Part shown: positions 11,998 to 30,970 of the stretch, piece after piece
Numbering within the stretch: the stretch's first letter is position 1
Layout: every line of letters begins with the position of its first letter
Assembly: GCA_023488435.1 (NCBI GenBank)
Contig: JAMDCK010000051.1
Coordinates: 1 to 46,060 of the forward strand
Length of the DNA: 46,060 bases
From: Actinomycetota bacterium
GTDB lineage: Bacteria > Actinomycetota > Coriobacteriia > Anaerosomatales > UBA912
Reading direction: 5' to 3'
Program-made: the position numbers and the translations under genes
Notes under the pieces: model-generated
Told to the model about the DNA's origin: nothing
What the model saw: only the letters and a program-made list of their open reading frames with translations
The model's database searches: none

Positions 11998-13854
11998 GTG
12001 AGATCAGTTAGAGCAGGGTTCTGGATGCCTGGACCTGCGGATGCCGAACTTCAATTTGAGGTAGGCAGCCCGCAAGTCCGGACGCCGGACGCCTTCCTCT
12101 TCGCCAAATCTGTCGGTAGCTGTGAACACTGTTTTGGCTGCGTTAGGGCGTGTCCCGCCGATGCAATCAGTGTCGCAGAGGGCGGTGCTCGAGTCATCGA
12201 AGAGCGCTGCGTAAAGTGTGGGATGTGCGTTCAGGGGTGTCCCCGGGGCAGGTTCACTGTAAGGGACGATCTGCCGAAGGTCCGCGATCTTCTTGGTAGT
12301 GGGAACAAGGTCGTCATAGTGTTGGCCACGGAATACCTTGCGGCGCTGCATCCGCGCTCGGCAATCGAAGTTGAGCAGGCGCTGCTCAACCTTGGGTTCT
12401 ACAGTGTTGAGAGCACTTTGCTGGGCGAGGAGCTGGTGGCAGCAGAGTATGAGAAGACCCACTCGCGACAAACAGGAGCTTTTCTTCTACGGTCGACGTG
12501 TCCGGTGGCGGTCGATTGGATCCGCAAGTTCCACCCTGGCATGAGCAAGGCGCTAGCTCCCATATTGCCGCCGTACATTGCGCAGGCCCATCTCGTTCGA
12601 GCGATGTACGACGAAGACCTAGCGGTTGTCTATGCCTCGCCATGCTACGCGCGGAAAGACGAGATATTCGACCCGGCTTTCGGAGACGTTGTGGACGTGG
12701 CGATCGACTTCACCGAACTGGAGTGCTTGTTGGCGGAGAATTCCTCTTTGGTGCAGAGCAAATCGACTGCGAGTTCGCCAGGGCGAAGACCGATGCCGAC
12801 CAAAGAGATCTCGTTGACCGATGGGTTCCCGAGAAAGACGCTGCAGGAGCACTGTCAGATGGACGAGCAGGTCGTGACTGTCCGGGGCCTAAATGAGCTG
12901 GACGCCTTATTGTCAGCGATGGCAAGAGGGGAGACTGCCCCAACAATCGTCGACATGCTGAACTGCGAGAGCTGCATCGACGGACCTGCGGTGAACCCTC
13001 GACTATCAGGATTCGCGAAGAGAAATCTCATCGCCACCGAACGCGAGAAGAACGCCGCTCCCGGCTTGAGCACGCGCGAGATTCTGAAACATTTGCCTTC
13101 GGTGGATTTGCGCAGATCCTTCCGGCCGATTCCAGTCTTTGAGCGCGCGGTCCCGCAGGCTCAGATCGAGGAAGAGCTGCGAAGGGGTGGATTCGCCTCA
13201 ATCGCCGAGGTGATTGATTGTGGAGCCTGCGGCTTCACTAAGTGCGCGGATCACGCCGCCGCGGTCATACGCTCCCATTCGAAGTGGGAGAGGTGCCTGC
13301 CTCAGGAGAAGACTCGGCAAGCTGAATCGATCGAAAGGCTGGAGCGGGATTCGTTGATCGACGGACCCACCGGTGCGTGGAACCGCCGTGCATTCGATAC
13401 GCGGCTGGACGAGGAGATTGCGCGGGCACAGCGGTACGGAGCTGCTCTGTCGCTGTTGATGATCGCGATCGACGACTTCGAGCGCTTCGGAGACCCAGAT
13501 ATGCCTTCGACTGCTGATTCGGCGCTCAAGGCCGTTGCCGACGAACTCCTCGGCGAAGTCAGACAATCCGACTATCTCGCAAGAATCGCTGGAGGAGAGT
13601 TCGCCATCATTCTCCCCTCGACCGGCAAGACTGCAGCGTTCGCTGTCGCCGAGAAGCTGAGAACCTTGATAGCAGCTGCGTCAGCAGAATCTGGCGGCGG
13701 AACGCGTTCGGAGCCTCCGGCCTCCATCTGTGTGGGCGTAGCGGCGCTTTCTGAAAACACTGGTCAAGCCGACCAGCTGTTCAAGGCGGCGAAGGGCGCC
13801 CTGCTAGACGCAAGGCGATCCGGAAGAGATAGGGTGAAGCTGGCCCCAGGATAG
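11998..13854 (+). CDS. [FeFe]-hydrogenase-like sensor fused to degenerate GGDEF domain
   Basis: A 618-residue cytoplasmic protein starting at GTG 11998. Domains in order: a 2[4Fe-4S] ferredoxin module (Cys42/45/48/52 and 71/74/77/81); an H-cluster domain at about 100-370; a PF04060-type Fe-S module (Cys408/411/416/433); and a GGDEF-like domain at about 452-615. The H-cluster loops are variant. L1 reads R-S-T-C-P (Thr167-Cys168) where catalytic enzymes have TSCCP. L2 is SPCYARKDE (Cys216). L3 is LNCESCIDGP (Cys323, Cys326), the CxxC form seen in sensory-type (group C) enzymes. All four H-cluster cysteine ligands remain, but the proton-relay cysteine is Thr. The cyclase signature is AGGEF (531-535), lacking the acidic third residue, and the upstream metal/GTP motif is also eroded. 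I infer a hydrogen or redox sensor with a c-di-GMP/GTP-linked but probably non-cyclase output. Confidence 0.85.
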   Translation: MRSVRAGFWMPGPADAELQFEVGSPQVRTPDAFLFAKSVGSCEHCFGCVRACPADAISVAEGGARVIEERCVKCGMCVQGCPRGRFTVRDDLPKVRDLLGSGNKVVIVLATEYLAALHPRSAIEVEQALLNLGFYSVESTLLGEELVAAEYEKTHSRQTGAFLLRSTCPVAVDWIRKFHPGMSKALAPILPPYIAQAHLVRAMYDEDLAVVYASPCYARKDEIFDPAFGDVVDVAIDFTELECLLAENSSLVQSKSTASSPGRRPMPTKEISLTDGFPRKTLQEHCQMDEQVVTVRGLNELDALLSAMARGETAPTIVDMLNCESCIDGPAVNPRLSGFAKRNLIATEREKNAAPGLSTREILKHLPSVDLRRSFRPIPVFERAVPQAQIEEELRRGGFASIAEVIDCGACGFTKCADHAAAVIRSHSKWERCLPQEKTRQAESIERLERDSLIDGPTGAWNRRAFDTRLDEEIARAQRYGAALSLLMIAIDDFERFGDPDMPSTADSALKAVADELLGEVRQSDYLARIAGGEFAIILPSTGKTAAFAVAEKLRTLIAAASAESGGGTRSEPPASICVGVAALSENTGQADQLFKAAKGALLDARRSGRDRVKLAPG

Positions 13855-13874
13855 GGATCGGTGGGATTGCGACC

Positions 13875-14516
13875 ATGAAGCCTCGTCTGCTGGTTTTCTT
13901 CGACTACACCTGACCGTTCTGCTTCGTCGACCGGTTCAGGTTCGACAGGCTGAAGCGCGAATCCGACCTCGAAATGGTGAGGTGCCCCTTCGAGCTGCGT
14001 CCACAGATGCCCGTCGGGAAACACGCCCCGGACACCGCCGAGACAAGCACCGAGCACTCCCAACGAGTTGTGGAGTACATCCTGCGGCAAGCTGCTGGGG
14101 AGGGTGCGAAGATGGTGATGCCTGAGTTCACCCCAAGCACTCACCTGGCTATGGCCCTGAGCGAGATCGGCAGGGATGGCGGGGAGGAACTTCACGCGGA
14201 GCTACACGCAGCAATCTTCTCGGCGTATTTCGAGCATGCGCTGGATATCGGCAGCCGAGAGGTGCTTCTCGACATCGGCAAGCGCCATGGACTTCGGGAG
14301 CGCGAGGTCAAGAGAGCGTGGGATGACGGCGAGTACGACGCTAGGCTGAGCCGATTTCGGAAGTTTGCGTTAGACTTGGGGGTCGATTCGACGCCGGCGG
14401 CACTGATTTGCAATGAACTTCTGATCGGCGTCCGCCCCTATCGAGTCCTGGAAGAGGCCGTACAGCGCTGCCTGACTCGCCCGGGATCACCGGGCGAAGA
14501 TCGCCCGGATGCCTGA
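13875..14516 (+). CDS. DsbA/FrnE-like thiol-disulfide oxidoreductase, selenoprotein (Sec13)
   Basis: A 213-residue thioredoxin-fold protein with an in-frame TGA at 13911-13913. Reading it as selenocysteine gives FFDYT-U-PFC-FVDRF, exactly where FrnE-like DsbA proteins have DY.CPFC; the first active-site cysteine becomes Sec and the second (Cys16) remains. The frame stays open and family-like on both sides: PFELRPQMPVG, the helical insert with AIFSAYFEHALDIG, VLLDIGKRHGL, and the cis-Pro region DSTPAALICNELLIG. The start ATG 13875 has GGTGGGA upstream. Without recoding only a fragment from ATG 13974 would be found, lacking the active site and first strand. A SECIS-like hairpin follows the UGA. 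The gene lies 20 nt after the hydrogenase-like sensor. The Sec reading is inferred; a nonsense mutation is the alternative, made unlikely by the exact position and hairpin. Confidence 0.87.
13921..13956 (+). promoter_or_regulatory. Bacterial SECIS-like element inside the selenoprotein gene
   Basis: Directly after the UGA codon the RNA can fold into nested stems: GCTTC/GAAGC (13921-13925 with 13952-13956), GTCGA/TCGAC (13926-13930 with 13942-13946), and CC/GG (13931-13932 with 13939-13940). U13941 is bulged and the loop is GGUUCA. The loop begins 20 nt after the UGA, close to the arrangement I recall for E. coli fdhF, whose GGUC loop starts 19 nt after UGA and whose upper stem also has a bulged U. 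In fdhF the bulge is on the 5' arm and here on the 3' arm. This supports SelB-dependent recoding. Confidence 0.72.
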
Positions 14517-22061: not shown

Positions 22062-23072
22062 TCAGCAGATCCGGGGCAGCTGCTCGCCGACTAGCATGTC
22101 CATGATGCGCGTCGACCCGAATCGGGTGTTCACATAGACCTTGCCTGGAGCACTCTCTTCGACAACGCCGATGATGGCCGCATCCTCGCCGTAGGGGGAT
22201 CGCTTCATGGCTTCGAGCGCCGCTTCGGCCTGCTCGGCAGGTACGACTGCGATCATCTTGCCCTCGTTGGCTACCTGGTAGACGTCGTATCCGAGCATCT
22301 CGCAAGCGCCCTGCACCTGCGCGCGGACGGGTACAGCGGCTTCCTCCACCACGATCGAGACTTCCGAGGCTACCGCAATCTCGTTCAGCGCGCTCGCTAG
22401 GCCGCCCCTGGTGGGATCGCGGAAGCACCGGGCGGCCGGAGCCGCTTCGATGACGTTGGCCACGAGGTGGTTGAGTGGCGCGGCGTCGGTGCGGATGTCG
22501 GTCGAGAAAGCGAGCCCTTCGCGCTGCGAGACGACAGCGATCCCGTGGTCCCCGAGGGTTCCTGAGAGGAGCACCTTGTCGCCGGGCTTGCAGTTGGCGG
22601 CTCTGCGCTCAGCGTCATCGGCGAGGACTCCCACGCCAGTCGTGTTGATGTAGACCCCGTCCCCGTGACCGTGCTCGACGACCTTGGTGTCACCGGTGAC
22701 GATGCGTACGCCTGCCTCGGCAGCCGCCTCGCTCATCGAGACCAACACCCGCTTGAGATCGGCGATGGGAAGCCCCTCCTCGAGGATGAATCCGACGGAG
22801 AGGTAGAGTGGCACGGCCCCGGATGTGGCAACGTCGTTGACGGTCCCGCACACGGCCAGCCTGCCGATATCGCCGCCCGGAAAGAAGATCGGGCTCACCA
22901 CGTAGGTGTCGGTCGACATGGCGATCCTCGACCCGGTCACGGCAAGAGAGGCCGCGTCATCCATGCGGCTGAGCTCGGGGTCGGCGAACTGCTCGACAAA
23001 AAGCTCCTCGATGAGCGCGCGCATCAACGTCCCGCCGCTCCCGTGCGCCAGCACGATCTTGTCTGAAAGCAT
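22062..23072 (-). CDS. hypE: [NiFe]-hydrogenase maturation protein HypE
   Basis: A 336-residue carbamoyl dehydratase of [NiFe]-hydrogenase assembly. It turns the carbamoyl group received from HypF into the thiocyanate that becomes the CN ligand on iron. Landmarks: HGSGGTLMRALIEELF at the N-terminus, SRMDDAASLAVTGSRIAMSTD, GDTKVVEHGHGDGVYI (ATP site), FRDPTRGGLASALNEIA, and the essential C-terminal cysteine in PRIC, the very last residue. ATG 23072 is preceded by AGGAGG; the frame is open upstream to 23336 but antisense to hypD and not homologous. The HypE fold resembles SelD, but the PRIC end settles the assignment. It follows hypD by 43 bp. Confidence 0.97.
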   Translation of the reverse strand: MLSDKIVLAHGSGGTLMRALIEELFVEQFADPELSRMDDAASLAVTGSRIAMSTDTYVVSPIFFPGGDIGRLAVCGTVNDVATSGAVPLYLSVGFILEEGLPIADLKRVLVSMSEAAAEAGVRIVTGDTKVVEHGHGDGVYINTTGVGVLADDAERRAANCKPGDKVLLSGTLGDHGIAVVSQREGLAFSTDIRTDAAPLNHLVANVIEAAPAARCFRDPTRGGLASALNEIAVASEVSIVVEEAAVPVRAQVQGACEMLGYDVYQVANEGKMIAVVPAEQAEAALEAMKRSPYGEDAAIIGVVEESAPGKVYVNTRFGSTRIMDMLVGEQLPRIC

Positions 23073-23115
23073 CGATCCTCCTAGGGGTCCTGATCCAGAT
23101 GGCTCGCGCGTCCGT

Positions 23116-24231
23116 CTACTCCGCCGAGGCGGGCGTAGTCGTCTGCTTGCCGTAGTCGGTGTAGCGGTAGTAGGCGGCGCATGAACCTTCCGAGGAGACC
23201 ATGCACGGCCCCACCGGATGCTCAGGCACACAAGCCCGTCCGAAGTGCTTGCACTCGAATGGCAACGTGATCCCGCGTAGCACCTCTCCGCACTGGCAGC
23301 CCGGAGTGCTGCGCTCCTCAGGCGGCGTGACCTCAAGGCGCCGCATGGCGTCGAAGTCAGCGAACTCGGGGCGGATCGCCAGGCCGGTGGCGGGTATCAC
23401 GCCGATGCCACGCCACTCGGAGTCCGCCGGTTCGAACACGCGCTCCATCATGGCAATCGCCGACGGGTTGCCATCCGGCGGAACCGCGCGCGTGTAGGCC
23501 GTTTCGATCTCGGCGCGCCCCTCGGCGACCTGCTTGGCGAGCATGTAGATGCCTTGCAGCACATCGAGCGGCTCGAATCCGGTGATCACGCTGGGCACCC
23601 CGAATTCCTCGGCGAGGAAGCGGTATGGCTGCACGCCGATGATCGTGGAGACGTGGCCTGGCAGGATGAGTCCGCGAACGGCCACCTGCGGGTCGTTCAC
23701 AAGCGCTCGCAGCGCCTCGGGCACGGTCTTGTGCGCCGAGAAGACCGCGAAGTTCGCGATCCCGCTCTCCTGCGCGCGGACGATGGCGGCCGCGATCAGC
23801 GGGACGGTGGTCTCGAAGCCAACGCCGATGAACACGACGAGCTTGTCGGGGTTACTCTCTGCGATCTGCAGGGCGTCAAGGGGCGAGTAGACGATGCGGA
23901 CATCGCGGCCGTCGGCCTTCTCGGCAGAGAGCGAGGAGTAGGAACCCGGGACCTTCATCATGTCGCCGAAGGTGGCGACGATCACGTCGGTCTGGCGGGC
24001 GTACTCGACGGCGATGTCGATGTCACGGTTGGGGGTCACGCAGACAGGGCATCCGGGTCCAGACATCAGCGTGATGGACTCGGGCATCACTGCCCGCAGC
24101 CCGAACTTGGCGATGGCGACGGTGTGGGTTCCGCAGACTTCCATGAACTTGACCGGGCCTGTGGGGACGGCGCGAATTGCCTCGATTAGCCCGCGGGCGA
24201 TCTGTGGGTCGCGGAATGTGTTGAGATCCAT
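23116..24231 (-). CDS. hypD: [NiFe]-hydrogenase maturation protein HypD
   Basis: A 371-residue iron-sulfur scaffold protein on which the Fe(CN)2CO unit is assembled together with HypC. Conserved motifs are present: FMEVCGTHTVAIAKFG, LMSGPGCPVCVTPNRDID, ATFGDMMKVPGS, FIGVGFETTVPLIA, and the C-terminal [4Fe-4S] region with CQCGEVLRGITLPFECKHFG, CVPEHPVGPCMVS and EGSCAAYYRY. The start lies 2 nt after the hypC stop. All active-site cysteines I know of in this family appear intact, so it should be functional. Confidence 0.97.
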   Translation of the reverse strand: MDLNTFRDPQIARGLIEAIRAVPTGPVKFMEVCGTHTVAIAKFGLRAVMPESITLMSGPGCPVCVTPNRDIDIAVEYARQTDVIVATFGDMMKVPGSYSSLSAEKADGRDVRIVYSPLDALQIAESNPDKLVVFIGVGFETTVPLIAAAIVRAQESGIANFAVFSAHKTVPEALRALVNDPQVAVRGLILPGHVSTIIGVQPYRFLAEEFGVPSVITGFEPLDVLQGIYMLAKQVAEGRAEIETAYTRAVPPDGNPSAIAMMERVFEPADSEWRGIGVIPATGLAIRPEFADFDAMRRLEVTPPEERSTPGCQCGEVLRGITLPFECKHFGRACVPEHPVGPCMVSSEGSCAAYYRYTDYGKQTTTPASAE

Positions 24232-24233
24232 GC

Positions 24234-24488
24234 TCAGGCCTCCTCTTTGAGAGGCTCCGGTTCATCCATTTCGACGACATTGATGGCCTTGAGGATCTCG
24301 AGGGTCTCCTTCGCGTACTCCTCATCGACGACCTGGATCGCGAAACCAGCGTGTACGAGCACCCAATCGCCAACGCTACCTTCGGAAATCAGATCCAGGC
24401 TGACATGCCGGGTGACGCCGAGGATGTTGATCTCGGCCATGTTGTGATCACCGATGCTGGTGATCTGCGCGGGAATTGCCAGACACAT
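24234..24488 (-). CDS. hypC: [NiFe]-hydrogenase maturation chaperone HypC/HybG
   Basis: An 84-residue chaperone that carries the iron unit from HypD to the hydrogenase large subunit. The N-terminal MCLAIPAQ motif, with the essential Cys2, is intact, and the OB-fold core VSLDLISEGSVGDWVLVHAGFAIQVVDEE is typical. AAAGGAGGTAAGG precedes the ATG. The tail is acidic (EMDEPEPLKEEA). It sits between hypF and hypD, the usual order in hyp clusters. Confidence 0.97.
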   Translation of the reverse strand: MCLAIPAQITSIGDHNMAEINILGVTRHVSLDLISEGSVGDWVLVHAGFAIQVVDEEYAKETLEILKAINVVEMDEPEPLKEEA

Positions 24489-24538
24489 GCTCCCTTACCT
24501 CCTTTGCCGGGATGATCCGCCGTAGCTCACGGGGCTCA

Positions 24539-26905
24539 TCACTGCCTGCTTCTGGTCCAGGCGACGACCGCCTGGCCGAACGACACAGCGCCATCATTGG
24601 TGGGCAGCCGCTTGTGGGTGAGCGCCGAGAATCCAGCTTCGCCCAGGTCTCGCAACGCCCCCTCCAGCACTATGCGGTTCATGAACACTCCGCCGGACAA
24701 AGCGACGTCTCGTACGCCGGTGAGATCTGCCGCCCGTCTGGCAAGGTCGACTATAACGCAAACCACAGCAGCGTGGAAGCGCGCCGAGATGACCGCAGCT
24801 GACACGCCGCGAGCTACGTCATCGAGCACTGCCCGCAGCACGGGCTCGGGATCGACCACGGTGGCTTCCCCATCGCCGAGAAACCCGAATGCGTAAGCAC
24901 CAGCCTCTGAGCGGTCGGCGCAAGCTTCGAGCTCGATGGCGGCCTCGCCCTCGTATGCGGCGTCGTCACGCACGCCTGCGATGGCGGCGACGGTGTCGAA
25001 CAGCCGACCCATACTCGATGTGAGCGGAGAGTTGATGCCCTGGTCGACCATCTTGAGCAGCAACTCCTCTTCGCCTTCGCGCAGGCGCTGCCGCAAGGGG
25101 CCGGCTCCCGGGTGATCCAGTAGTCCGGTCGCGTGCAGGGTCCCGATCGCCATACGCGCCGGCCTGCGGATTGCAGCCGCGCCTCCGGGCATGGGCACAT
25201 ACGCCAGGTGCGCGAACCGCTCGAACTCGCTCCAGTCGGCCAGCAGAACCTCCCCGCCCCAGATCCGTCCGTCGCTTCCGAAGCCGGTGCCGTCGAATGC
25301 GATTCCGGTGACCCGGCTAGAGAGCGCGTGCTCCGCGGTGACTGAGACCACGTGGGCGTGATGGTGTTGGACCCCGACCTTCGGCAGATCGAGCTGCGTT
25401 GCGTACTTGGTCGAGAGGTACTCGGGGTGCAGGTCGTGGGAGACAAGCTGCGGCTTCACCCGGAAGAGTTTGCTGTAGAGATCGATCGTCTGCTCGAAGT
25501 GCTCAAGGGTCTGGCGGTTCTCCATATCGCCGATGTGCTGCGATACGAAGGCGTGCTCGGCCCTGACTAGCGTGAACGTGTTCTTCTGCTCGGGGCCTAC
25601 GGCGAGTATGTCGACCTGCGACCGCCCGGGCAACCGCAGGGGATAGGGAGCGTAGCCTCTCGCGCGGCGGACCGGCTCCACGACGTCTGCAACCACGCGG
25701 AACACGCTGTCGTCGTAGCGGGAGTGGATGTCGCGGTCGTGTAGCAGGAAGCCGTCGGCGATGCGCGCCAGGCGGCTGAGCGCCTCGGCGTTCCCGGTCG
25801 CTATCGGCTCCTCCGACAGGTTGCCCGAAGTCATCACGAGCGGCCTGCGCATTCGCGCCAGGAGCAGGTGATGCAGGGGAGTGTACGGCAGCATCACGCC
25901 GATCTCGGGCAGGTCGCCGCTTACCGACGGAGCGAGTCCGCCTTCGCCGTCGTGGCGCCGCATGAGGACGATGGGCCGCGTGGTGCCGGCGAGCAGGGCT
26001 TCCTCGGCATCGCTCACCACACACAGCCTACCCGCCGAGGAGAGATCAGGCACCATGACCGCAAGCGGCTTGCCCCAGCGGTGTTTGCGTTCTCGGAGTC
26101 GCTTGACCGCCGACTCGTTGCTTGCGTCGCACGCAAGGTGGAATCCGCCCAGCCCCTTGATTGCGATGATGGCGCCCTCTTCGAGCAGGGAGATCACCGC
26201 TGTCAGGATGTCGTTGCTGCGCTTTCGCTCGGAGCCGCCGTCACGATGAGGGCGCGGCACCGACTCGACATCCGGCGTCCACTCCCAGGAGCCCGCCTGA
26301 GATCGGTTGTCGCCGGCCTCGGGGTTCGTGACGTTGAGGTACAGACGCGGGCCGCAAACGAAGCAAGCGTCAGGCTGAGCGTGGAACCGACGGTCGGCCG
26401 GATCGGCGTACTCGGCCGAGCAATCCGGGCACATCCCGAAGACCTTCATGGTCGTCGAGGGACGATCGTACGGCACGTCGTCGATGATCGTGAAGCGAGG
26501 ACCGCAGTTGGTGCAGTTGATGAACGGGTAACCCGATCGCCTGTCCGCCGGGTCGAACAGCTCGCTCACACACATATCGCACGTCGCAATGTCGGGCGAC
26601 ACGAGCGTAATGGCGTCCGCCACGGCCTGTGACTCCCCGATCGTGAAGCCACCGAAATCCCCGGGTGGCGCATCTTCGGCAGTTATGTCCTCGATCACCG
26701 ACATCGGTGGAGCTTCTCGCCGAAGCGCTTCGAGGAAGTCTCGCAATGACTCGGGGCTACCTTGGATCAGGCAGTGGACTCCGTCGCTGGAGTTGATGAC
26801 CCAGCCCACGATCCCAAGTCGGACCGCCAGGTTGTACACGAACGGGCGGAATCCGACGCCTTGGACGATGCCGGTTATGTGGACCTTCAGGGCTTGGGTC
26901 TGCAT
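24539..26905 (-). CDS. hypF: Carbamoyltransferase HypF
   Basis: A 788-residue HypF, which makes the CN ligand precursor from carbamoyl phosphate and passes it to HypE. Domains in order: acylphosphatase (GIVQGVGFRPFVYN, 12-25); two zinc-finger motifs (CDMC...CTNC near 108-137; CPDC...CFVC near 158-184); YrdC-like (AIKGLGGFHLACDA onward); and Kae1/TobZ-like carbamoyltransferase with HHHAH near 519, AFDGTGFGSDGRIWGGEV and the C-terminal ALSGGVFMN. Between the second zinc finger and the YrdC domain there is an insert of some 35 residues rich in polar residues (NRSQAGSWEWTPD...), longer than I expect. hypC follows 50 bp downstream. Genes hypA and hypB are not nearby, nor are hydrogenase subunits. 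Confidence 0.97.
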   Translation of the reverse strand: MQTQALKVHITGIVQGVGFRPFVYNLAVRLGIVGWVINSSDGVHCLIQGSPESLRDFLEALRREAPPMSVIEDITAEDAPPGDFGGFTIGESQAVADAITLVSPDIATCDMCVSELFDPADRRSGYPFINCTNCGPRFTIIDDVPYDRPSTTMKVFGMCPDCSAEYADPADRRFHAQPDACFVCGPRLYLNVTNPEAGDNRSQAGSWEWTPDVESVPRPHRDGGSERKRSNDILTAVISLLEEGAIIAIKGLGGFHLACDASNESAVKRLRERKHRWGKPLAVMVPDLSSAGRLCVVSDAEEALLAGTTRPIVLMRRHDGEGGLAPSVSGDLPEIGVMLPYTPLHHLLLARMRRPLVMTSGNLSEEPIATGNAEALSRLARIADGFLLHDRDIHSRYDDSVFRVVADVVEPVRRARGYAPYPLRLPGRSQVDILAVGPEQKNTFTLVRAEHAFVSQHIGDMENRQTLEHFEQTIDLYSKLFRVKPQLVSHDLHPEYLSTKYATQLDLPKVGVQHHHAHVVSVTAEHALSSRVTGIAFDGTGFGSDGRIWGGEVLLADWSEFERFAHLAYVPMPGGAAAIRRPARMAIGTLHATGLLDHPGAGPLRQRLREGEEELLLKMVDQGINSPLTSSMGRLFDTVAAIAGVRDDAAYEGEAAIELEACADRSEAGAYAFGFLGDGEATVVDPEPVLRAVLDDVARGVSAAVISARFHAAVVCVIVDLARRAADLTGVRDVALSGGVFMNRIVLEGALRDLGEAGFSALTHKRLPTNDGAVSFGQAVVAWTRSRQ

Positions 26906-26921
26906 CGGCGGCGCCCTGTGA

Positions 26922-27575
26922 TCAGCCGTGCTTCTGTTGTGGGGTTTTGGGGAAGCTGCCCGCCACGAAGCGGTTGTTGATCAGGACGAACAGCGCGTAT
27001 GCCTGGTCGAGTAGCTCCATCGCCGTGTCGGAGTCCTTCGAAGTAAGTGCCTCCTGCGGACCTCGGAACGGCGAGTCGTGGATGAACGCGTTGCGAACGG
27101 CTCGAGTCGCCCGCCACCGCCGAGGAAAATCGCGGAACCCGAGCTCGGCGGCTACGTCTTCGAAGGACTCGCCCACCAAGCTCGGGAACAGACGTCCGAT
27201 CCGCGCGCCGATGGATCGCTGGCTGTCGAAAACCAACTCCCTGACGTTGAGGCTTGCCCCTTGGGCGGTCAGTATCCGGTCGATGATGTCCTCCAAGATC
27301 GACTCAAGGAAGGTCTCGGCCAAGATGACCACGATCTCGTGTTCGGATTCGCGATAGTATGCGCGGATCCGAGAATCAAGTCTCCTGAGGCGATCCGTGG
27401 GGAACGTCCTTCGGCTATCCCCGAACGCGGCACACACCGGGCAGGCGATCTCATGTGAGCCGAACTTGGGGTCGGCCGTGAGATAACCACACTCCGGGCA
27501 CTCGAAGTATGTGGGCGCAACATCGCTGACTCGCTTGTGCACGACGGCCTTTTTGGAGGCTTTCGCTTTCTTCAT
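26922..27575 (-). CDS. Zinc-ribbon protein with HEPN-like RNxxxH motif, function unknown
   Basis: A 217-residue cytoplasmic protein of unknown function. A basic N-terminus (MKKAKASKKAVVHKR) is followed by a zinc ribbon with Cys26-x2-Cys29 and Cys45-x2-Cys48. The rest is mostly helical and includes RNAFIHDSP, in which R161-N-x3-H166 matches the RNase-type HEPN signature (R, polar residue, three residues, H). HEPN domains with this motif are often metal-independent ribonucleases in toxin-antitoxin or abortive-infection systems, though DUF4145-like proteins with a zinc ribbon also exist. No nucleotidyltransferase antitoxin neighbour is present; the neighbours are a small ORF and hypF. The start ATG 27575 is taken because it begins the basic leader. 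The HEPN reading is a motif inference. Confidence 0.6.
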   Translation of the reverse strand: MKKAKASKKAVVHKRVSDVAPTYFECPECGYLTADPKFGSHEIACPVCAAFGDSRRTFPTDRLRRLDSRIRAYYRESEHEIVVILAETFLESILEDIIDRILTAQGASLNVRELVFDSQRSIGARIGRLFPSLVGESFEDVAAELGFRDFPRRWRATRAVRNAFIHDSPFRGPQEALTSKDSDTAMELLDQAYALFVLINNRFVAGSFPKTPQQKHG

Positions 27576-27606
27576 CGGTCCTGCCGGGTATCCGATGTGC
27601 GCATAC

Positions 27607-27855
27607 CTAGATCCGCTTCACGGTCACGGATGCGCTGGGAGCAACATCGAGCATGTCGACCGCATGCTCGAGTTTGGCTCGCGTCTCGCCGAGCAGCACC
27701 GTCGCTTGTGCGAGCGCCACGCTCGCATCACGCAAAGCGGCATGGTCCGCAAGGTGGTGGAGTTGCTCGAGCCACTGCTGCGACATCGCCAGTGAGTCAT
27801 CAGCCTGCTTGATCATGAACTGGAACTGCTCGGCGTTCAGCCCTTTCTCGCACAT
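27607..27855 (-). CDS. Small helical protein of unknown function
   Basis: An 82-residue protein that I do not recognise. Composition suggests two to three amphipathic helices: NAEQFQFMIKQADDSLAMSQ, then a Leu/His-rich stretch QWLEQLHHLADHAAL, then SVALAQATVLLGETRAKLEHAVDML. A short hydrophilic tail ends in TVKRI. There is one Cys (Cys2) and no signal peptide. An AGGCAAAGGGGC purine tract precedes the ATG. It lies 17 bp downstream of trxA and 31 bp upstream of the HEPN-like gene, so it is probably in the same transcript. It could be an adaptor or small regulator, but nothing shows this directly. Confidence 0.6.
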   Translation of the reverse strand: MCEKGLNAEQFQFMIKQADDSLAMSQQWLEQLHHLADHAALRDASVALAQATVLLGETRAKLEHAVDMLDVAPSASVTVKRI

Positions 27856-27872
27856 ATTCGCCCCTTTGCCTC

Positions 27873-28199
27873 CTAGCCCATCAAGGGCGTCAGTTCCTCT
27901 ACGAGTTTCTTCTTCGGCATCGCGCCAACGAGCTTCTTGACGACCTGTCCATCGACGAAGACGAGCAGGGTCGGGATCGAGAGGATCTCGAAGCGCGTTG
28001 CGATTCCAGGGTTCTCATCGACGTTCAGCTTCGCCACTCGCAGCTTATCGCCATACTCCGAGGCGACCTCTGCCAGTACAGGCTCCATCATCCGACACGG
28101 CCCGCACCATGGTGCCCAGAAATCGAGGACCACCGGCACGCTGCTGTTCGTCACATCTGCCTCGAAGCTGGCATCCGTGACCTTTACTAGCTCTCCCAT
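27873..28199 (-). CDS. trxA: Thioredoxin
   Basis: A 108-residue classical thioredoxin that reduces protein disulfides in the cytoplasm. The active site is WCGPC (31-35) in VLDFWAPWCGPCRMMEP. The downstream KLNVDENPGIATRFEI and cis-Pro IPTLLVF segments are canonical. ATG 28199 gives a normal N-terminus (MGELVKVTDASF); the frame extends in-frame to 28229, but that adds ten atypical residues. It lies 38 bp downstream of trxB, its electron donor, and the two are expected to be co-transcribed. Confidence 0.97.
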   Translation of the reverse strand: MGELVKVTDASFEADVTNSSVPVVLDFWAPWCGPCRMMEPVLAEVASEYGDKLRVAKLNVDENPGIATRFEILSIPTLLVFVDGQVVKKLVGAMPKKKLVEELTPLMG

Positions 28200-28956
28200 G
28201 TATTCCAGTCTCCTCTCGTTGTCATGCATCCGTCGATCTAGATAGCACAGACCTTCTCATCAATATACCTGACCGCTTCAAACGCCGAAGAAGCGCCTTT
28301 CGCGGCAGCGGTGATGACTTGCTTTAGCTCCGAATCGGTCACGTCACCTGCGGCAAATATGCCCGGCCACGAGGTGCGACCGTCATGGTCTATCTTGATA
28401 TACCCGGCATCGTCCAAGTCGAGCACGTCAATTGCCAATTCGTTGACCGGATCGATTCCAACGAATATGAACACCCCGTCCAAGGGGAGAACCACATCCG
28501 CTTCGCCCTTGGTAGACGCCAGAATCACCGATTGAACCTTGCTGTCGCTACCCTGGATCTCGCGGACCGCCCTGCTCCAGTGCACTTCGATCTTATCGTT
28601 GGCGAAGCACTTCTCCTGGATGCACTTGGTGGCGCGAAGTTCATCTCTGCGGTGGACCACGTGTACTCGGGCGGCGAATTTGGTCAGGAACAGGGCTTCC
28701 TCGATCGCAGCGTCACCGCCACCTACTACTGCGACGACCTTGTCTCTGAAGAGCGCTCCGTCGCACGTCGCACACCACGAGACCCCTCGGCCGGTGAATT
28801 CGGCTTCTCCAGGAATGTGGAGTTTCCTGGGCACTGCACCCGTCGCAACGATGACGGATTTCGCCAGGTACCGCTCATCCTCAGAGGTGGTTACCAGGAA
28901 GTCCTGGCCTTCGGATTCGATCTTGGTGACGGAGATGAAGGGCTTGATCTCGGCAC

Positions 28957-30970
<2,014 letters not shown>

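Follow-up and report, generated by a model that had tools for sequence, protein, structure and literature searches.

The window, i.e., the whole stretch of 46,060 nucleotides of DNA that we analysed (contig JAMDCK010000051.1 of an Actinomycetota bacterium), carries on its forward strand a gene that is interrupted by an in-frame TGA shortly after its start. Read directly from the ATG, the gene translates as MKPRLLVFFDYTU-PFC..., where U stands for the TGA at codon 13, the place of the first cysteine of the DsbA-type active site (Table 1). If this codon is taken as a residue, the result is a single continuous protein of 213 amino acids with a DsbA fold (PF01323), and the frame shows no other lesion. 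An earlier note on this DNA had proposed that the TGA falls on the first active-site cysteine, that the protein resembles FrnE and DsbA on both sides of it, and that a reading based on open frames would lose the start, the first strand, and the active site. These points are borne out: the match to the Pfam DSBA profile covers residues 5 to 197 in one frame (75.2 bits for a cut-off of 25.6), while standard ORF calling recovers only 13974-14516, from which the first strand and the active site are missing. The comparison of sequences confirmed that the TGA is neither a chance occurrence nor the product of a frameshift.

Table 1. Features of the locus, and of one further gene of the same genome (G000). 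Coordinates are those of the window unless a contig is given.
Feature	Position	Strand	Basis or remark
Upstream neighbour, [Fe] hydrogenase-like / GGDEF fusion protein	11998..13854	+	Ends 20 bases before the selenoprotein gene (spacer 13855-13874)
Full putative selenoprotein gene, 213-aa cytoplasmic FrnE/DsbA-like oxidoreductase	13875..14516	+	Read through TGA13; stop TGA 14514-14516
TGA codon proposed to encode Sec, residue 13, first of the U-P-F-C active site	13911..13913	+	Alignment of TGA and Cys orthologues
Resolving Cys16 of U-P-F-C	13920..13922	+	Invariant, 38/38
Predicted bacterial SECIS hairpin	13926..13946	+	7-bp stem GUCGACC/GGU(U)CGAC, one bulged U
Thr173-cisPro174, cis-proline loop of the thioredoxin fold	14391..14396	+	Conserved, 38/38
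Cys179, second-pair cysteine	14409..14411	+	Invariant, 38/38
Cys199, second-pair cysteine, last helix	14469..14471	+	Invariant, 38/38
Formate dehydrogenase catalytic subunit (locus L201)	G000:C23:31775-33628	-	In-frame TGA at the canonical Sec site

Conserved genes with an in-frame TGA are also what one would see if this codon had been globally reassigned, to Trp or Gly, in the lineage. However, TGA ends 18 of the 25 genes of the window, and also the frame 13875-14516 itself. It is therefore an ordinary stop, which argues against a global reassignment. Furthermore, the internal TGA aligns with Cys only, never with Trp or Gly, and we regard this explanation as vanishingly improbable.

Among 120 relatives, a tblastn-type search located the gene in 40, of which G018 and G030 have only fragments of it. 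We rebuilt 38 orthologues from the same order, and named records place the clade in the Anaerosomatales, within the Coriobacteriia. The identity to the window protein ranges from 48 to 81% among the 30 aligned orthologues. As the earlier note had anticipated for homologues, position 13 is always U or C: the codon is TGA in 21 of the 38 genes, TGC or TGT in 17, and nothing else. Residue 13 and the cysteines at 16, 179, and 199 are the sole cysteines (or Sec) in nearly all of them. The TGA is kept at exactly the same codon in 21 species across several families, including the copy in a genome of the same genus. Codons 1 to 12 of the same-genus copy show two synonymous and no non-synonymous differences to those of the window, and the codons 5' of the TGA are thus under purifying selection. 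Two more candidates for recoded codons, a TAG (in G050) and a second TGA (in G039), turned out to be terminal stops.

The TGA could in principle be a true premature stop that replaced a TGC or TGT cysteine codon, by pseudogenization or sequencing error. A single base separates these codons, and the machinery for selenocysteine (Sec) is absent from the genome's own assembly (see below). Yet the presence of TGA at exactly codon 13 in so many species refutes this explanation in practice. It is also at odds with the purifying selection before the TGA, with the SECIS loop described below, which is found in all TGA genes, and with the lack of any further lesion in the frame. We therefore consider it highly improbable. 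Instead, the residue seems to have switched between Sec and Cys within the clade. The tree requires six such changes, of which at least two are forced by well-supported branches, and the number of switches is probably about six and at least two.

The hairpin downstream of the TGA has a 6-nt apical loop, GGUUCA (13933-13938), which starts 19 nt past the UGA. The published model of the bacterial SECIS (bSECIS) specifies a loop of 3-9 nt, a stem of 4-16 bp, a G in the first two loop positions, a spacing of 16-37 nt, and an MFE <= -7.5 (PMC13188914). The hairpin agrees with all four structural constraints (6 nt, 7 bp with one bulge, GG, and 19 nt), and its folding energy is -9.5 kcal/mol for a 26-mer (z -2.27) and -13.6 kcal/mol for a 39-mer. 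A search of the gene for Rfam families found none. All TGA genes (21/21) have the loop motif GACC-RGTTCM-GGT, but only one of the Cys genes does (1/17; Fisher p about 8e-10, for sequences that are related and hence not independent). In addition, the Arg of the stem is encoded by CGG or AGG (MGG) in all 18 TGA genes that were scored, compared with 42% elsewhere in these genes (p=2e-7), and the three TGA genes outside this scoring have the same codon. Four genes show a compensatory swap from a C-G to a G-C pair. We downgraded the stem alone as evidence of a SECIS because the bare stem pairs in 79.5% of cells among the Cys orthologues too, and it must therefore derive in part from the conservation of the protein or from Sec ancestry. 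Hence, as judged from these alignments, the discrimination of the SECIS rests on the loop and on the codon constraint, the stem by itself being weakly discriminating.

The RNA element seems to have left a trace in the protein. All Sec forms have Phe at residue 21, as does one Cys form (locus L032, in G027), whereas the remaining 16 Cys forms have His, Pro, Ala, or others there, and this residue thus appears to be dictated by the SECIS. The exception, L032, has a TGC at residue 13 together with the complete loop motif and Phe21. It looks like a recent reversion from Sec to Cys.

The weak point of this case is the Sec machinery. The genome of the window (1.70 Mb in 62 contigs, 96% complete) was searched for selB, tRNA-Sec (selC), selD, and selA, and none was found in the assembly. 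Several candidates were rejected: the RF01852 matches (45 bits) are ordinary tRNA-Ser, the matches to the SelB profile extend over just the GTPase portion of long ORFs, with scores far below the cut-off, and a SelD-like match within the window (22062-23336) is HypE (TIGR02124, 459 bits). The earlier note had made its claim depend on the presence of these genes in the genome. Taken at face value the assembly contradicts it, but searches for the flanking genes show that there is a gap precisely there. In relatives, the order selD-selA-selB-selC is conserved and follows genes for FtsB-like, DUF501, Ppx/GppA, B12-binding, TPR, GH-like, and GGDEF/EAL proteins (names read from the sequences and not by profile search). 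Contig C1 of the window's genome has the FtsB-like, DUF501, and Ppx genes and breaks inside the latter (C1:28037-28891 of 28,891; locus L166). The B12-binding, TPR, GH-like, and GGDEF/EAL neighbours were searched in the same genome and are missing, the other matches being distant paralogues. Since the contig ends in Ppx and four neighbours unrelated to selenium are also missing, the absence of the sel genes is best read as a single assembly gap over the region. This is the simplest reading, and the case for it is strong but indirect. Scored by the list of its genes, the assembly would wrongly count as Sec-negative.

In the order as a whole, selB is above the cut-off in 50 of 64 genomes. G001, from the same genus, has a tRNA-Sec (anticodon UCA) whose sequence is the same as in G003, together with part of selA and a SelD that itself contains Sec (...SKAGUAAK). 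The tRNA-Sec gene of G001 lies at 616-708 of a small contig (G001:C65, locus L155), where it adjoins AAA ATPase-like and RloB-like genes. The selC of this genome may thus be an integration site for islands, which could explain repeated breaks of the assemblies.

We also considered that the species of the window might have recently lost the ability to decode Sec, the TGA genes being dead relics. The failure to find the four sel genes in a nearly complete assembly fits with such a loss, as does a genome of the same family (G002, 82% complete) that lacks matches to selB, selC, and selD, and yet keeps the TGA gene. However, the broken contig and its missing neighbours are what one expects of a gap, and the contigs that bear the sel genes in G001 and G003 are 3-11 kb long and easily left unbinned. 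Moreover, two independent TGA genes of the window's genome, the FrnE-like gene and a formate dehydrogenase, are intact, and so are their SECIS hairpins. We give this loss only a slim chance. The formate dehydrogenase (L201) is the only PF00384 (molybdopterin oxidoreductase) protein found in this genome. Its Sec site reads ...RLUHSSTVAGL and is accompanied by a hairpin SECIS with a GGUC loop (-23.3 kcal/mol). At the level of predicted genes, it is independent evidence that the window's own genome uses Sec.

The structure of the protein was predicted by AlphaFold as a confident DsbA fold (pLDDT 89, pTM 0.86). The first five matches in the PDB are all FrnE of Deinococcus radiodurans (TM 0.80-0.82), a protein that was also found by sequence (E 0.007). 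The features of the DsbA superfamily are present: a predicted thioredoxin fold, a UxxC or CxxC motif at the start of helix 1, and the Thr-cisPro pair in all orthologues. The first strand starts at residue 4 and the Sec is residue 13. There is no room before this strand for a signal peptide, and the protein is therefore expected to be cytoplasmic, like FrnE. Judged by the best PDB matches and the lack of a signal peptide, the nearest subfamily is FrnE (COG2761 / cd03024), COG2761 being what we take to be the FrnE orthologous group. The D. radiodurans protein (DR_0659; PDB 5cnw, 5co3, 5cp1, 5coh, 5xwh) shares the cytoplasmic DsbA fold, an active site of the CP(W/F)C type, and extra conserved cysteines in the C-terminal part. 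It differs by having Cys in the place of Sec, by an identity of about 20%, and by its second motif, which is CXXXXC (C239/C244), whereas the two cysteines of the window protein are 20 residues apart. We looked for a C-terminal CXXXXC in the window's family and found in its place the invariant pair C179/C199 (38/38). This motif occurs in many but not all FrnE and is not a strict requirement (PMC8945050). None of the NCBIfam profiles matched the window protein at its cut-off. The Rcas_1661 thioredoxin-like (seleno)lipoprotein family (NF041057, DsbG-like) also has a UxxC motif in a thioredoxin fold, and shows a weak likeness in the C-terminal half. We rejected membership in this family, since the score is 19.7 bits for a cut-off of 190, and the family consists of lipoproteins whereas the window protein has no signal sequence.

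Taken together, the product of the locus is very probably a true selenoprotein, namely a cytoplasmic, FrnE-like oxidoreductase of the DsbA family, with UGA13 read as Sec by means of the SECIS. The earlier note's proposal of a hidden UxxC selenoprotein of the FrnE/DsbA type is thereby upheld, given the U/C pairing, the SECIS, the second Sec gene, the machinery in relatives, and the top structural match to FrnE. We infer the incorporation of Sec itself from what can be seen directly, i.e., the gene structure, the U/C pairing, the SECIS, the predicted fold, and the Sec genes in the genome and in close relatives. During translation, UGA at codon 13 would be decoded as Sec. The stem-loop, which begins roughly a dozen bases 3' of the UGA and presents its loop at 19 nt, would recruit the SelB-GTP-tRNA-Sec complex. 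The product would be a thiol/selenol oxidoreductase with the active site Sec13-Pro-Phe-Cys16. We also infer the direction of catalysis and the redox partner. By analogy with the FrnE of D. radiodurans, the enzyme would most likely be a disulfide reductase or isomerase. Sec13 would act as the nucleophile that attacks the substrate disulfide, and Cys16 would resolve the mixed selenenyl-sulfide. The enzyme would then be re-reduced by a thioredoxin-type system, for which the window has a thioredoxin gene and a Pyr_redox_2 reductase gene at 27873-29185, and/or via the invariant pair Cys179/Cys199, possibly acting as a relay. The FrnE of D. radiodurans has both disulfide isomerase and reductase activities, and its C-terminal cysteines serve in regeneration (PMC8945050). 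The lower pKa and higher reactivity that the earlier note expected at this site are general features of Sec chemistry.

The earlier note was wrong in suggesting that no Sec form of the DsbA/FrnE group had been well described. DsbA-like selenoproteins of COG2761 with a UxxC motif were reported from the Sargasso Sea in 2005 (PMC1088965), then from complete genomes in 2006 (PMC1794560) and from the GOS data in 2008 (PMC2398784), and a 2026 review names a "DsbA-like protein form 1" (PMC13188914). The 2005 protein (COG2761 / PF01323) shares with ours the PF01323 fold, Sec as the first residue of UxxC, a SECIS directly 3', and widespread Cys homologues. Compared by description, the published examples come from marine metagenomes and elsewhere mainly from Deltaproteobacteria and Firmicutes, whereas the present clade belongs to Anaerosomatales and carries an additional pair of invariant cysteines. 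The paper on the first cultured Anaerosomatales does not discuss selenoproteins in the passages that were matched, where "selen" occurs in growth tests with selenate and selenite (PMC9686372). Hence, the window gene is a solid new clade of an already known kind of selenoprotein, and not a new kind of system. Ordinary annotation would nevertheless truncate an enzyme and remove its active site across a whole order of little-studied, subsurface anaerobic actinobacteria. Furthermore, the orthologues (21 with Sec, 17 with Cys) and the switches between them, the SECIS-bearing L032, and the Phe21 fixed by the SECIS form a compact natural series to study the gain and loss of Sec within one enzyme, and to ask which benefit Sec brings to a cytoplasmic enzyme of the DsbA type.

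The neighbourhood of the gene varies within the clade. In 28 relatives, a gene for a radical SAM protein of the AmmeMemoRadiSam type lies directly 5' of the DsbA gene (loci L012-L036; TIGR04337, 317 bits for one of them), and a functional link between the two is possible. The genus of the window lacks this gene, and the [Fe]-hydrogenase-like/GGDEF gene abuts instead. The product of the latter is an unusual fusion of a ferredoxin, a domain like the large subunit of iron-only hydrogenases with an Fe-S motif, and a GGDEF diguanylate cyclase. It is possibly a redox-sensing cyclic-di-GMP enzyme. One could define a distinct Sec-FrnE subfamily of Anaerosomatales by Sec13/Cys16 with a Cys179/Cys199 relay, the AmmeMemoRadiSam link, the repeated Sec/Cys switching, and the Phe21 dictated by the SECIS, but we propose it tentatively, as this full combination seems rather doubtful. 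Further along the window, the hydrogenase maturation genes hypE, hypD, and hypF are found on the reverse strand within 22062-29185, and thioredoxin and thioredoxin-reductase-like (Pyr_redox_2) genes lie near them at 27873-29185.
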